From an uncultured Eubacteriales bacterium (GTDB lineage Bacteria; Bacillota; Clostridia; Oscillospirales; Oscillospiraceae), in NCBI GenBank assembly GCA_900316205.1, contig ONBX01000014.1, positions 1 through 51,080 on the forward strand: a stretch of 51,080 bases of DNA, in the 5' to 3' direction. The notes beneath the pieces are model-generated. The model was given only the letters and a program-made list of their open reading frames with translations. It searched no databases and was not told the DNA's origin. Positions 26,571-33,502 of the stretch are shown here, piece by piece. Both the position numbers and the translations under genes were made by a program. Position 1 is the stretch's first letter, and the number at the start of each line of letters is the position of its first letter.

Positions 26571-26610
26571 AAAAGAAAAAGCCAGCTCTTACGAGCTGGC
26601 TTTTTCTTTT
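26571..26610 (-). terminator. Original tRNA-Thr terminator, now displaced
   Basis: AAAAGAAAAAGCCAGCTC and its mate GAGCTGGCTTTTTCTTTT form an 18-bp stem with a TTAC loop. It sits next to the left copy of the tRNA 3' end, so before integration it lay directly downstream of tRNA-Thr. Pairing continues outward into both tRNA-like flanks (GGAGCTGCTGGGC). Confidence 0.85.
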
Positions 26611-26654
26611 GGAGCTGCTGGGCAGATTCGAACTGCCGACCTCATCCTTACCAA
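26609..26654. other. Distal attachment site of the integrated element (46-bp tRNA-Thr 3' repeat)
   Basis: 46 bp from TTGGAGCTGC to CCTTACCAA are identical to 33457-33502, in the same orientation. Here the sequence breaks off from the tRNA after the anticodon region, so this is the displaced 3' half of the target tRNA. Confidence 0.93.
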
Positions 26655-26775
26655 AAATATACGGGCCAACAATAGCGTGTTATAGCTTGATAAAGGATGA
26701 ACGGCGGAGGCGCTGAAAACACTGGGCCTTTCGCGTTTTCTTGCTATAGATTGATATAGCGGGGTGATAGATCAG

Positions 26776-26815
26776 ATAGTAGTTTTTAGCTTGCTCATAG
26801 TAGTTTTTTAGTAGT
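26776..26815. repeat. Left arm-type repeats of the element
   Basis: ATAGTAGTTTTT (26776-26787) and ATAGTAGTTTTTTAGTAGT (26797-26815) lie about 120-160 bp inside the left att. The 19-bp form is identical and in the same orientation at 33337-33355 near the right att, as expected for integrase arm sites. TATAGCTTGAT and TATAGATTGAT repeats lie just outside (about 26681 and 26745). Confidence 0.7.
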
Positions 26816-26852
26816 CCGGGAATATCCTTCTCGTTTCAAAAAATCAGATGCA

Positions 26853-26886
26853 GCAAAGAGCCGCCCACACGGGGCGGCTCCTTTGC
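26853..26886 (-). terminator. Terminator after the 53-aa gene
   Basis: GCAAAGAGCCGCCC and GGGGCGGCTCCTTTGC form a long stem with one bulge, adjoining the stop codon of the minus-strand gene. On the minus strand a T-rich stretch follows. Confidence 0.75.
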
Positions 26887-27047
26887 TATCTGCTACTCTG
26901 TTTCTTTTCCTCCCTTTGCCTGTGCCAGATCTCATACTCCTCTATCACTTTGGGATCTTGAAACATCTCTTGAGCCATTTTGTAAGTTGCGGCTAATAGT
27001 CGCTGCCGTTTGCTTTCCGGGATGCTGTCATAGTCGATTGCCGCCAT
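26886..27047 (-). CDS. Small hypothetical element protein, 53 aa
   Basis: ATG 27047 is preferred because AAGGGAG precedes it by 7 nt; earlier in-frame starts near 27095 lack a ribosome binding site. The product starts MAAIDYDSIPESKRQRLLAA and is charged and helical, ending EEKKQSSR. It follows the Arc-like gene after 16 nt, so they form one transcript. A toxin partner is possible but no toxin family is recognised. Confidence 0.65.
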   Translation of the reverse strand: MAAIDYDSIPESKRQRLLAATYKMAQEMFQDPKVIEEYEIWHRQREEKKQSSR

Positions 27048-27063
27048 ATAAATCTCCCTTTCG

Positions 27064-27252
27064 TCATTGCTGATCTCTACCCATCGTTTCATCAATGGCC
27101 CGGTTGATAAAAGCGTTTACGCTTTCTCCCCGGCTTTCAGCGTGGGCCTTGATTTTCTCTTTCTTCCCCTTGTCTGTTCTGACTTTGATTTCATCATAGT
27201 TCTCTTTCATGTATTTGTTCACAGCTCTCTGCTGAGCCTTTGTTGCCGTCAT
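27064..27252 (-). CDS. Arc/RHH-type DNA-binding protein, 62 aa
   Basis: ATG 27252 follows AGGAG. The N-terminal helix is followed by EIKVRTDKGKKEKIKAHAES and GESVNAFINRAIDETM, a strand-helix-helix pattern like Arc-type RHH proteins common in clostridial phages and islands. Expected to bind operator DNA as a dimer. A minus-strand promoter TTGTTC-17-TATGAT lies 30-60 bp upstream, and an inverted repeat ATATATCG/CGATATAT lies further upstream. Confidence 0.75.
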   Translation of the reverse strand: MTATKAQQRAVNKYMKENYDEIKVRTDKGKKEKIKAHAESRGESVNAFINRAIDETMGRDQQ

Positions 27253-27282
27253 GCTCTCTCTCCTTTCCTCTGATTTAGTATT

Positions 27283-27383
27283 ATCATAGCAGAAACATCT
27301 ATCGGGAACAATATAACGATCTGTTAAAAACCGTCCCTTCTTTTTGTTAATTATTCCAGCTTGATATATCGGGTACGATATAT
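27283..27383. promoter_or_regulatory. Divergent regulatory region with promoter and operator-like palindrome
   Basis: On the minus strand TTGTTC (27311-27306) and TATGAT (27288-27283) are 17 bp apart and would drive the Arc-like gene. ATATATCG (27364-27371) and CGATATAT (27376-27383) form a perfect inverted repeat upstream of the plus-strand pair, a possible operator of the Arc-like protein. Confidence 0.5.
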
Positions 27384-31477: not shown

Positions 31478-31528
31478 GTTTCAACGCCAGCGTGATTAAT
31501 TGTCACAAAATTGAAGGGAGCTGTAAGT

Positions 31529-32098
31529 ATGATTGAGAGAAAAATAGTCAATAGAAGGGTTAATGAATTACGAGATAACATTCTTTGCTTAACGCAGAAG
31601 GACTTTGCAGAATTATTAGGGAAAGGCCGATCCACTGTAAACAATTGGGAGCAAGGGACTCAGATTAAATCAGATGATCTTGAAAGAATATGCCGTGTAA
31701 CCGGAGCCTCTGCTGACTATCTGCTCGGCCTCTCTGAAGTATGGAGGCGCAGCGAATCATTGCAGAGTATTCATGCTGAAACGGGCCTTTCGGAAGAGGC
31801 TATTATTAAGTTGGTAAAAATCAATAAAGGACCCGACGCAGAAAGATTTCTTCGCGTCATTTCTTTGCTTATTGAGAACAGCAACGCAGAATTCTTTCTT
31901 GTGCTTCTATCCTCTCTCTTCGATATAGACGCATCCTCAGGTCCAAAGACAATAAGCGTGGATATCAACGGGGAACCTCTTACAATGTCAACAGAAGGGT
32001 TTCTAATAGAACACATAAAGACATTGTTCGTGCAAGATATTCTTGACATAAAAACCAGTATAGGAAAACGGAGGGACGGCAATGGCGAACGCAGTTGA
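31529..32098 (+). CDS. XRE-family repressor of the element
   Basis: ATG 31529 follows AAGGGAG; 189 residues. The N-terminal HTH (about 8-65) reads NILCLTQKDFAELLGKGRST, VNNWEQGTQI and ICRVTGASADYLLGLSEVWR, a Cro/CI-type fold. The C-terminal 120 residues are of unknown family and may form dimers or sense an inducer; no RecA-type self-cleavage motif is obvious. It is transcribed away from the minus-strand operon across the shared promoter and overlaps the integrase gene by 17 nt. Confidence 0.85.
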   Translation: MIERKIVNRRVNELRDNILCLTQKDFAELLGKGRSTVNNWEQGTQIKSDDLERICRVTGASADYLLGLSEVWRRSESLQSIHAETGLSEEAIIKLVKINKGPDAERFLRVISLLIENSNAEFFLVLLSSLFDIDASSGPKTISVDINGEPLTMSTEGFLIEHIKTLFVQDILDIKTSIGKRRDGNGERS

Positions 32099-33314
32099 AA
32101 AGAAAACCAAAGACGGTAAGCGGTTCTATGAGCTACGGGCATACAGCAAAGAAAAGGGGCGGTATTACACCAGCAGATGGTATGTCCCGGAGGGCTGGGG
32201 ATCACGTTCTATTCAGAACGAACTTAAAACCCAGCTCGTAAACTTCCAGAACGCCGTAAACGCCGGGGAAATCCTTTCTAAAAAAGAACAGGCAGCAAAG
32301 GCAGAGGCGGAGCGGGCCGCTGCGGAGAAAGCCGCTGCGGAGCTGGCGAAGCTCAAAACCGTCAAGCAGTACGCCAATTCCGTATTCATGCCGGATAAGG
32401 AAAGGAGCATTTCGGAGAATACGCGCCTGTCCTATCGCTCGAACCTGGATAAACACATTCTGCCGAAGCTGGGCGCCACCCTGATGCAGGATGTAACGCC
32501 CGCCATGATCAACGCGCTGCTCTTTGACTTCCAGAAGGATCACAGCTATGGCAGCACAGTAAAGCTTTACAATGTCCTTCACGGCCTGTTTGAATCGGCT
32601 CTGTTTGATGACACCATCCAGATCACGCCGATGATGAAGGTCAAGAGGCCCAAGCAGAAGAAGGACGAGCGGGCCGTTGCAGAGGCTGACAAAGCCCTGT
32701 TTGCTGACGAGCTGCTCCATGTTCTGGACTGTCTTAAAAACGAGCCTCTGAAATGGCGCTGCTATATTGAGCTGATGGCAGACACCGGAATGCGGCGTGG
32801 TGAGTGCTGCGCGGTTCAATGGTCTGACTTTGATTTCAAAGCCGGAACCGTCACCATCAAGCGCAATCTGCAATACAGCACCGACAAGGGCGTGTATGAG
32901 GCAGCACCGAAGGGAGGACGCTTCCGGACGGTTGATATCGGGCCTGATGTGATCGCCCTTCTGAAAGCCTACCAGCAGGAACAGGCCAGCAAGCGCCTTT
33001 CAAAATGGGTCTTCACGCAAGAGGGCGAAGATGAACCGATGTTCCCCCACGCGCCGACAAGATACTTCCAGAAGTTCGGGGAGCGGTACAATATCCCTGG
33101 CTTCCATCCTCATCTGCTGCGGCATACATCGGCAACTCTGAGCCTGACGAATGGCGGCGATCCGAAGAGTGTTGCAGATCGTCTCGGTCACGCCGATGCC
33201 GCCGTCCTGCTTCGGGTCTATGCCCACGCATCCGATGAGAGCATCAGGAACGCCGGACAGGCCGCAAGGGACGCGCTCAAGCTGAAGAAGGAAAAAGCAA
33301 AGGCGGAGGCTTAA
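32082..33314 (+). CDS. int: Tyrosine-type site-specific integrase
   Basis: This 410-residue integrase has an N-terminal AP2-like arm-binding part (about 1-50), an Ala/Glu/Lys coiled linker (about 65-90), a core-binding domain (about 92-190) and a catalytic domain. The active-site residues are visible: Arg in TGMRRGE near 236, HLLRHT near 349, LGHAD near 372 and the nucleophile Tyr in LRVYAHA near 382. It inserts the element into tRNA-Thr. It is the gene nearest the rebuilt tRNA and ends in a terminator that overlaps its stop codon. Confidence 0.95.
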   Translation: MANAVEKKTKDGKRFYELRAYSKEKGRYYTSRWYVPEGWGSRSIQNELKTQLVNFQNAVNAGEILSKKEQAAKAEAERAAAEKAAAELAKLKTVKQYANSVFMPDKERSISENTRLSYRSNLDKHILPKLGATLMQDVTPAMINALLFDFQKDHSYGSTVKLYNVLHGLFESALFDDTIQITPMMKVKRPKQKKDERAVAEADKALFADELLHVLDCLKNEPLKWRCYIELMADTGMRRGECCAVQWSDFDFKAGTVTIKRNLQYSTDKGVYEAAPKGGRFRTVDIGPDVIALLKAYQQEQASKRLSKWVFTQEGEDEPMFPHAPTRYFQKFGERYNIPGFHPHLLRHTSATLSLTNGGDPKSVADRLGHADAAVLLRVYAHASDESIRNAGQAARDALKLKKEKAKAEA

Positions 33315-33329
33315 TGCCCCCGCCTTTTT
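33301..33329 (+). terminator. Integrase terminator overlapping its stop codon
   Basis: AGGCGGAGGC (33301-33310) pairs with GCCCCCGCCT (33316-33325) with one mismatch, followed by TTTT. The stop TAA lies in the loop. Confidence 0.85.
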
Positions 33330-33336
33330 GTGGTCA

Positions 33337-33355
33337 ATAGTAGTTTTTTAGTAGT
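33337..33355. repeat. Right arm-type repeat of the element
   Basis: ATAGTAGTTTTTTAGTAGT is identical to 26797-26815, about 100 bp inside the right att. A partial third TAGTAGTTTTTT continues after it. Confidence 0.75.
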
Positions 33356-33406
33356 TTTTTGCCATTTCAGCCAAAACGCCAAACATCTCGTTTTTTCAAA
33401 AAGTAC

Positions 33407-33451
33407 ATAGAAAAAGCAAAAAGCACCAGAAACGATTGCGTTTCTGGTGCT
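33407..33451 (-). terminator. Element-supplied terminator for tRNA-Thr
   Basis: AGCACCAGAAAC (33422-33433) pairs with GTTTCTGGTGCT (33440-33451). On the minus strand it is followed by TTTTTGCTTTTT. It lies just after the rebuilt tRNA and inside the element, replacing the original terminator that was pushed to 26571-26610. Confidence 0.85.
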
Positions 33452-33456
33452 AAAAG

Positions 33457-33502
33457 TTGGAGCTGCTGGGCAGATTCGAACTGCCGACCTCATCCTTACC
33501 AA
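33457..33502. other. Proximal attachment site within tRNA-Thr
   Basis: 46 bp identical to 26609-26654. It covers the tRNA 3' half from the anticodon loop to the CCA end, so integration restores a complete tRNA gene. Confidence 0.93.

Follow-up and report, generated by a model that had tools for sequence, protein, structure and literature searches.

Structure and integration site of the element

The stretch analysed here (the window) is the whole 51,080 bp of contig ONBX01000014.1 (our C38) of an uncultured Eubacteriales bacterium of the Oscillospiraceae, whose 2.78-Mb genome (G000) comprises 88 contigs, and it carries a compact element with phage-like genes inserted at a tRNA-Thr gene (Table 1). 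An exact 46-bp direct repeat bounds the element, with 6,848 bp from start to start, and its right copy is the 3' part of a tRNA-Thr(GGT) gene on the minus strand, in agreement with the att repeats of the original prediction, which had read the element from its sequence as a possible minimal phage satellite. The GC content is 51.1% within the element compared to 61.5% across the remaining window.

A tRNA-Thr site without the element was found in genome G021 of the same genus (locus L048), where flanks and core lie within approximately 2.1 kb; the left flank matches window positions 25634-26189 (89% over 556 bp), the exact core lies inside a tRNA-Thr/tRNA-Asp stretch (97% over 255 bp) and the right flank matches positions 34162-35071 (92% over 910 bp). 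The tRNA region was matched in 58 of the 61 genus genomes searched; sites were viewed in G021, G013 and contig C74 of G015, and the other matching genomes were counted by match alone. The window integrase is 53% identical to that of the element at the same tRNA in G042, and its family (50-54% identity) is found at tRNA-Thr(GGT) in G042, G085, G091 and G385 as well as in the same-genus genome G013, in which an 11.4-kb element bearing the closest integrase occupies the same tRNA. The comparison of tRNA-Thr sites with and without the element, proposed at the outset as a check, yielded both states. Together, the repeats, the tRNA, the integrase and the empty site indicate that the element has its own recombinase between att repeats, with the recombination itself predicted. 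Contig C74 of G015 has another island at the same site, in which two tRNA-Thr-end repeats spaced 6,763 bp from each other surround large genes unlike those of the satellite (L082, 1767-8580).

Possible arm-type integrase sites with AGTAGTTTTT repeats lie near both ends of the element, the copies at 26797 and 33337 having 19 nt exactly in common; the left motif was absent from L083, L029 and L033 in an identical motif scan. At window positions 26558-26623, two 31-nt arms that are perfect inverted copies enclose a 4-nt loop; they take in a terminator-like hairpin as well as the final 15 nt of the distal copy of the tRNA, so that the tRNA 3' end is present in both orientations at the distal side. 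The integrase adjoins the tRNA in the window element and lies at the far end in the tRNA-Thr elements L008, L029, L033, L083 and L120. Integrase and core of all six form one family despite the opposite orientation, and the att core is thus inverted relative to int in the window element.

Table 1. Features of the element in the window.
Feature	Position	Strand	Basis
att core, distal copy (original tRNA-Thr 3' part)	26609..26654	-	46/46 identical to 33457-33502
Possible left arm-type integrase sites, AGTAGTTTTT repeats	26776..26815		direct repeat family D2; putative role
e1, small protein	26886..27044	-	ORF (open reading frame); no family match
e2, ribbon-helix-helix-like protein	27064..27252	-	phrog_13890 E 9e-18; phrog_582 Arc-like E 9e-6
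e3, accessory small protein	27441..27647	+	ORF; no family match
e4, accessory small protein	27658..27888	+	ORF; no family match
e5, regulator-like, sigma-region-4-like C-terminus	28025..28426	-	phrog_36 transcriptional regulator E 2e-9; Sigma70_r4_2 E 0.004 (below cut-off)
e6, 231 aa, helical signature protein	28495..29190	-	A7 profile; AlphaFold pLDDT (predicted local distance difference test) 84.1
e7, 91 aa	29174..29449	-	53% over 79 aa to same-place G006 homologue
e8, 70 aa	29446..29658	-	49% over 69 aa to same-place G006 homologue
e9, TerS-like (small terminase subunit) packaging protein	29642..29998	-	phrog_2538 E 8e-10
e10, DUF6291, in slot holding primase or helicase in several relatives	30036..30671	-	PF19808 E 5e-21
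e11, ~131 aa	30664..31059	-	phrog_2113 E 8e-12
e12, excisionase-like small helix-turn-helix (HTH) protein	31056..31253	-	TIGR01764 E 0.024 (below cut-off); HTH_17 E 0.049
e13, 55 aa, first operon gene	31228..31395	-	phrog_14214 E 2e-8; homologues L015, L018, L019, L033
Two face-to-face sigma-70-like promoters, common TATAAT, within inverted repeat TTTTTAGTCAT/ATGACTAAAAA (possible operator)	31427..31476		promoter scan; repeat read from sequence
XRE/CI-like repressor	31529..32098	+	HTH_3 E 5e-10; phrog_8 E 3e-17
Tyrosine integrase, 410 aa	32082..33314	+	PF00589 E 6e-28; phrog_1 E 6e-61
Possible right arm-type integrase sites, AGTAGTTTTT repeats	33337..33366		direct repeat family D2; putative role
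att core, proximal copy, rebuilds tRNA-Thr(GGT)	33457..33502	-	repeat search and tRNA call
tRNA-Thr (GGT), integration gene	33458..33533	-	ARAGORN

Gene content

The integrase and XRE repressor of the original prediction were both recognised by profiles. The repressor faces a leftward operon of nine closely packed genes, i.e., e13, xis-like e12, e11, e10, TerS-like e9, e8, e7, e6 and regulator-like e5, with two facing promoter-like sites between them, which is a Stl-like arrangement and bears out the predicted bidirectional switch. Each site has 11 of 12 matches and a 17-bp spacer, and two were observed compared to a mean of 0.3 in shuffles. With a stricter pattern, a facing pair was found in none of five relatives' switch regions and a single promoter in two of the five, indicating that this detail is not conserved. 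The predicted excisionase-like gene held with regard to position, as a similar gene is in place in relatives, but its profile matches are weak. Profile searches of the element proteins, also suggested beforehand, matched phrog_2538, phrog_2113 and, for e10, PF19808. Homologues of e11 occur in L010, L018, L019, L029, L034, L035, L116, L117 and L118, e10 matches the primosomal protein family phrog_6451 at E 0.014 only, and e5 is 45% identical to its G006 homologue. The accessory genes e3 and e4 (+) and e2 and e1 (-) are located past the operon end, and e2 has homologues in L010, L011, L030, L038 and L083. Starts were picked by eye via ribosome-binding sites for e11 (ATG 31059, not 31197), xis (31253) and TerS (29998).

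As predicted, no capsid, portal, tail, large-terminase (TerL) or lysis gene was recognised among 15 proteins of the element by Pfam and PHROGs or among 10 by NCBIfam, apart from a single weak tape-measure match of e6 (PHROGs, E 7e-4), and by profile the element has no structural head or tail genes of its own. Likewise, among the 25 of 42 matched families listed, no head or tail family was found in 68 of 70 unassigned ORFs of ten related or own elements and six window proteins. The 15 proteins gave no primase or helicase match with Pfam and PHROGs, and a replication module of the kind found in phage-inducible chromosomal islands (PICI) was not recognised; nor was there a relaxase or coupling-protein match (15 proteins with Pfam and PHROGs, 10 with NCBIfam). 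Capsid-size genes of the cpmA/B or ppi type were not recognised by profile, although e6, being without a fold or sequence match, excludes nothing in this respect. P4-type genes had no profile match in the window proteins, no search aimed at P4 having been made, and capsid genes of the capsid-forming PICI (cf-PICI) kind had no match in the window element.

The TerS-like protein e9

The terminase-small-subunit-like protein of the original prediction was corroborated by the PHROGs match of e9 and by its AlphaFold model (pLDDT 92.9), for which named phage small terminases occupied five of the seven top PDB rows with modest Z. In Pfam, e9 had only matches below the cut-off, the best being a transposase HTH (E 1e-4), with Phage_terminase PF10668 at E 9e-4. 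It is homologous to a protein of the Streptococcus satellite phages Javan245 and Javan243 (29-30% identity; E 3e-6 and 6e-6), annotated there merely as 'hypothetical protein', and a homologue lies near the large-terminase gene of a full 30.7-kb phage (PQ006093). Homologues are also found directly before TerL in L012, L038, L042 and L045. In G013, a GP3_package protein (PF16677, E 3e-7; L083, 5930-6436) is present in place of the window's TerS family, as if packaging genes were swapped.

The signature protein e6 and relatives across the order

The e6 model consists of two long helices (residues 2-43 and 51-100) and a helical C-terminal part, and none of the known folds searched matched clearly. 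Across 10 aligned sequences, L115, L116 and G119 do not vary, and S118, N136 and T138 hardly do. A role of e6 in packaging or head choice may be supposed from its position near TerS or TerL and from how seldom it occurs in phage records.

With profile A7, e6 was found in 14 of 394 genomes of the order and 13 of 169 genera (own genome counted), eight of the 14 having contributed sequences to the profile. Five of the 15 A7 matches are weak (E 1.6e-9 to 9e-6; G425, G367, G337, G249 and G328). The two-sequence profile A1 matched eight of 394 genomes, own counted and one doubtful; its match in G135 (E 9.5e-4, within an 813-aa frame) did not recur with A7 and was dropped. Homologues beyond the own genome, the absence of which had been named as contrary to the satellite reading, are therefore present. 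Among 16 e6 loci viewed, with G006 added to the profile-matched ones, TerS was recognised next to e6 in seven (G000, G006, G042, G085, G091, G367 and G385).

A tRNA-derived repeat of 23-48 bp bounds 10 of 13 loci tested (Table 2), and no att repeat of at least 23 bp was found in L121, L015 and L119; L031, L032, L034, L035, L115 and L118 lay outside this test. The L029 sequence begins at 38,000, with its left repeat at the extreme edge. The nine att-bounded elements with e6, including that of the window, span 5.8-12.0 kb. Their gene order varies, e11 being unrecognised in the G385 element and TerS in those of G337 and G068, and across the loci compared the replication slot holds DUF6291 (window and L008), CHC2 and DUF3987 (L029), AAA_25 (L033) or D5_N (L035), the 799-aa protein of L116 matching that of L035 (E 4e-29). 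Such mosaicism together with a recurring plan is the pattern of mobile satellites. Gene maps of relatives were made with a custom ORF picker, not a trained gene finder, and some overlapping frames are misplaced; the TerS gene of L037 and the TerL gene of L122 were overlaid by antisense calls, and the e6 frame was missed in L115 (G425).

Table 2. Elements bounded by att repeats (size from core start to core start).
Genome	Size	Site and repeat	Remark
Window	6,848 bp	tRNA-Thr(GGT), 46 bp	
G367	6,838 bp	tRNA-Arg, 48 bp	single-contig genome, similar gene order
G385	5,810 bp	tRNA-Thr(GGT)	
G085	6,298 bp	tRNA-Thr(GGT)	
G042	6,305 bp	tRNA-Thr(GGT)	
G006	7,713 bp	tRNA-Ser, 23 bp	
G091	7,933 bp	tRNA-Thr(GGT), 44 bp, 93%	
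G068	8,545 bp	tRNA-Leu, 32 bp	
G013	11,403 bp	same tRNA as window	no e6 shown
G337	12,017 bp	tRNA-Cys, 32 bp, 97%	

Relatives in phage and virome records and a candidate helper

When e6 of L029 was compared by tblastn with 50,697 phage records, three matched. All three are contigs from Mexican human faecal samples, filed without annotation as 'Bacteriophage sp.', and the window e6 recovered the same three, while e6 of L033 recovered none of the 50,697. One of the three, MT836267 (11,458 bp), has a 124-bp terminal repeat, which would give a circle of 11,334 bp; no such repeat was seen in MT837714 and MT837364. MT836267 encodes TerS, TerL (PF04466 E 2e-34), e6, a ribbon-helix-helix-like protein, an integrase 46% identical to that of the window, XRE, xis and an AAA_25 helicase, and no portal, capsid or tail match was obtained for the ORFs scanned. 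Its single att core is identical to the window's in 46 of 46 positions and lies 188 bp from the integrase, and MT836267 thus looks as an excised relative should, judged by its sequence. Its TerL is of an ordinary phage type, matched in 364 phage records at E 1e-30.

MT836267 probably derives from the virus-like particle dataset of Bikel et al. (2021), prepared according to the available text by 0.45/0.22 µm filtration, chloroform and DNase I treatment and assembled with IDBA-UD (BioProject PRJNA646512; PMC8361208). Country, sample type and 'scaffold_N' naming agree with this source, as does the length of the terminal repeat, which is close to the assembler's upper limit of k (maxk 125; PMC8844717), although the link is not proven, as no accession is printed in the searched text of PMC8361208 and PMC8844717.

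IMG/VR relatives (L042, L044 and L045) include one, L044, with an att core carrying three mismatches near its integrase, and records of the same kind as MT836267 (MT837302 and MT837627) contain the integrase family and gave no e6 or TerS match. The partial record MT837364 (L039, 1921-6736) has, after TerS and e6, genes for an unknown protein, a phrog_706 protein and a protein resembling a tape measure, and may represent a phage fragment, a chimera or a satellite with tail genes. L121/L012 (G015, at tRNA-Arg) and L129 are further candidates for TerL-bearing satellites; these small loci combine TerL with integrase and/or primase-like genes and showed no portal or capsid gene by eye. The IMG/VR TerL contigs L129-L132 have no e6 by profile; in L129, which is small, a 246-aa protein of unknown kind stands where e6 would be, and L131 and L132 look, from gene order and length alone, like phages with portal and head genes.

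In the same genome as the window, contig C20 (L122, 16,152 bp) encodes TerS (phrog_1206), TerL, portal, peptidase, major head, internal virion and tail proteins, and this prophage segment is a candidate helper. A related prophage lies approximately 2 kb beyond the satellite on the same contig in the same-genus genome G006, with shared DNA blocks 75-83% identical. The C20 segment adjoins a transporter gene, which we take from its sequence to be MATE-like, and the G006 prophage lies beside a similar gene, this neighbour being one of the shared blocks.

Proposed cycle and alternative explanations

Mobility and probable packaging genes, the lack of recognised particle genes, and like layouts in other genera and in a faecal circle make it probable that the element travels by hijacking other phages. 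We consider it likely that it is an integrated, intact-looking phage satellite with the following helper-dependent cycle, an interpretation drawn from sequence comparison. Upon phage infection or prophage induction, the XRE repressor would come off an operator located between the two facing promoters, turning on the leftward operon from e13 to e5. The integrase and the xis-like protein would excise a 6.85-kb circle, which would be replicated, perhaps via recruitment of host or helper replication proteins by e10. The element's own TerS would bind a pac-like site on its DNA and pass the DNA to the large terminase of the helper, which would fill helper heads, the tails also being the helper's. 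Our guess is that e6 would most likely act on the helper, i.e., on head size or packaging choice. Once in a new host cell, the DNA would reintegrate at tRNA-Thr. The original reading as a satellite is thus supported, with mobilisation by a helper as its inferred part.

Alternatively, the element could be what is left of a larger prophage whose head and tail genes were lost while its integrase, repressor and early genes were retained. This would account for a TerS-like gene and early phage-like genes without late genes, and both the TerS homologue in a full 30.7-kb phage and the tail genes on one e6 contig (L039) are in line with it. However, none of the element's genes was seen to be broken and its att copies are identical, and a similar compact layout is found again in several families of the order, combined with different integrases, tRNAs and replication genes, which would hardly be expected from independent decay. 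Moreover, the same block was not seen inside larger prophages in the records and loci searched, another observation named beforehand as contrary to a satellite, and by tblastn 50,694 of 50,697 phage records lack e6. We consider a remnant very unlikely. If the element were instead integrative and mobilisable, spreading by conjugation with the help of a relaxase acting in trans, this would agree with the tRNA integration, the small size and a weak plasmid mobilisation match of the ribbon-helix-helix-like e2 (NF041264 E 0.007, far below cut-off), but is highly improbable given the lack of relaxase and coupling-protein matches (15 proteins with Pfam and PHROGs, 10 with NCBIfam), the presence of a packaging-type gene, the absence of e6 from 72,556 plasmid records (tblastn) and the occurrence of relatives in phage and viral-contig collections.

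The TerS-like protein could instead be merely a regulator, in which case the element would be a hitchhiker resembling the phage-inducible chromosomal minimalist islands (PICMI), which excises and replicates and does not direct packaging. According to the available text of PMC10803314, PICMI115 (6.1 kb) lacks a terS homologue and its DNA is packaged in concatemeric form; TetR-type HTH proteins are among the structure and sequence matches of e9, and its Pfam matches are mostly generic HTH. In contrast, PHROGs and five of the seven top structure rows name small terminases, e9 homologues lie right before or near TerL in the five records named above, and the G013 relative at the same tRNA has another packaging-protein family; we therefore find a mere hitchhiker very unlikely, and prefer a satellite that takes part in its own packaging.

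Relation to known satellites

PICI typically carry a tyrosine integrase, att repeats, a repressor facing an early operon, an excisionase-like gene and their own TerS, and no structural genes. The window element resembles Firmicutes PICI, including the Staphylococcus aureus pathogenicity islands (SaPI), in each of these respects, with no structural genes recognised and, by similarity, a putative own TerS for packaging. Unlike PICI, it is about half the usual size, has no recognised primase, Rep, or cpmA/cpmB/ppi-type gene in the window and contains the unnamed e6, e7, e8 and e11, and its family occupies tRNA-Thr, Arg, Ser, Leu or Cys sites in Oscillospiraceae and relatives. Thus, the element appears to work like a PICI, yet is not classed as one because no primase or Rep was recognised. 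The TerS+TerL form (L038, L042, L045 and L012) resembles cf-PICI, which have their own terminase pair and capsid genes, in the terminase pair, but differs in that no capsid or portal gene was found in the L038 ORFs scanned; L042, L045 and L012 were scanned in part. P4-like satellites carry psu, delta, sid and alpha-type genes. Capsid redirection by PICI is described in the consulted text of PMC12409344.

In size, the element is similar to Javan245 (6,450 bp) and Javan243, which carry an integrase, a DNA-binding protein, a regulator and a primase, then the TerS-like homologue and small genes, but e6 was not found in their records (E up to 0.01), and the replication gene and the host differ. Like the PICMI of Vibrionaceae, it is approximately 6 kb with integration and replication functions and no capsid-remodelling genes, but PICMI lack terS and lie next to fis in the text available (PMC10803314), whereas the element has a TerS-like gene and a tRNA-Thr site and falls outside the PICMI definition. 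Satellites of 7-20 kb are given in the accessible part of a 2026 paper (PMC13376191), and streptococcal satellite prophages are about one third the size of full prophages in that of PMC6813308. The unusually small size claimed in the original prediction holds relative to PICI, but PICMI115 (6,110 bp), which in the same PICMI text shows that 6.1 kb suffices for a satellite without a terS homologue (PMC10803314), and Javan245 are smaller still, so that the size is striking and not unprecedented.

Neighbouring and cargo genes

A 203-aa ORF left of the element (25579-26190) presumably encodes a REP-associated transposase-like protein. Between integrase and att, L008 (13817-14348) and L120 (1336-1867) have a small gene pair, probably toxin-antitoxin cargo since one of the ORFs scanned matched the RelE-like toxin phrog_7251. 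Possible defence-type cargo was seen in the larger elements L117 (6042-6500) and L083 (8944-9435), with the PADLOC matches NsnC (E 4e-6) and PDC-M08B (E 2e-6).

Implications

The element probably represents a new satellite family. In the literature searched, we found no described family of such elements in this bacterial group, no e6 and no TerS+TerL form, although subscription papers were largely outside reach and novelty is thus unproven. The odds seem to us about even for the wider proposal that satellites of 6-12 kb form one family across the order, in Oscillospiraceae and families related to it, with e6 and a compact int-xre/xis-e11-rep-TerS-e6 plan, occurring in TerS-only (as in the window) and TerS+TerL forms without head and tail genes, with circles packaged in the human gut and e6 as a new helper-directed capsid or packaging factor.

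To our knowledge, phage satellites are known mainly from staphylococci, streptococci, enterobacteria and vibrios. The present findings point to a satellite family in a common, little-cultured group of gut bacteria, with e6 as a searchable signature and a TerS+TerL form in which capsid genes were not recognised, and the recurring minimal gene plan narrows what a satellite needs. Since the att core and the circular faecal relative offer targets for PCR and read mapping, the proposed cycle may be tested in stool virus fractions without culture of the host.

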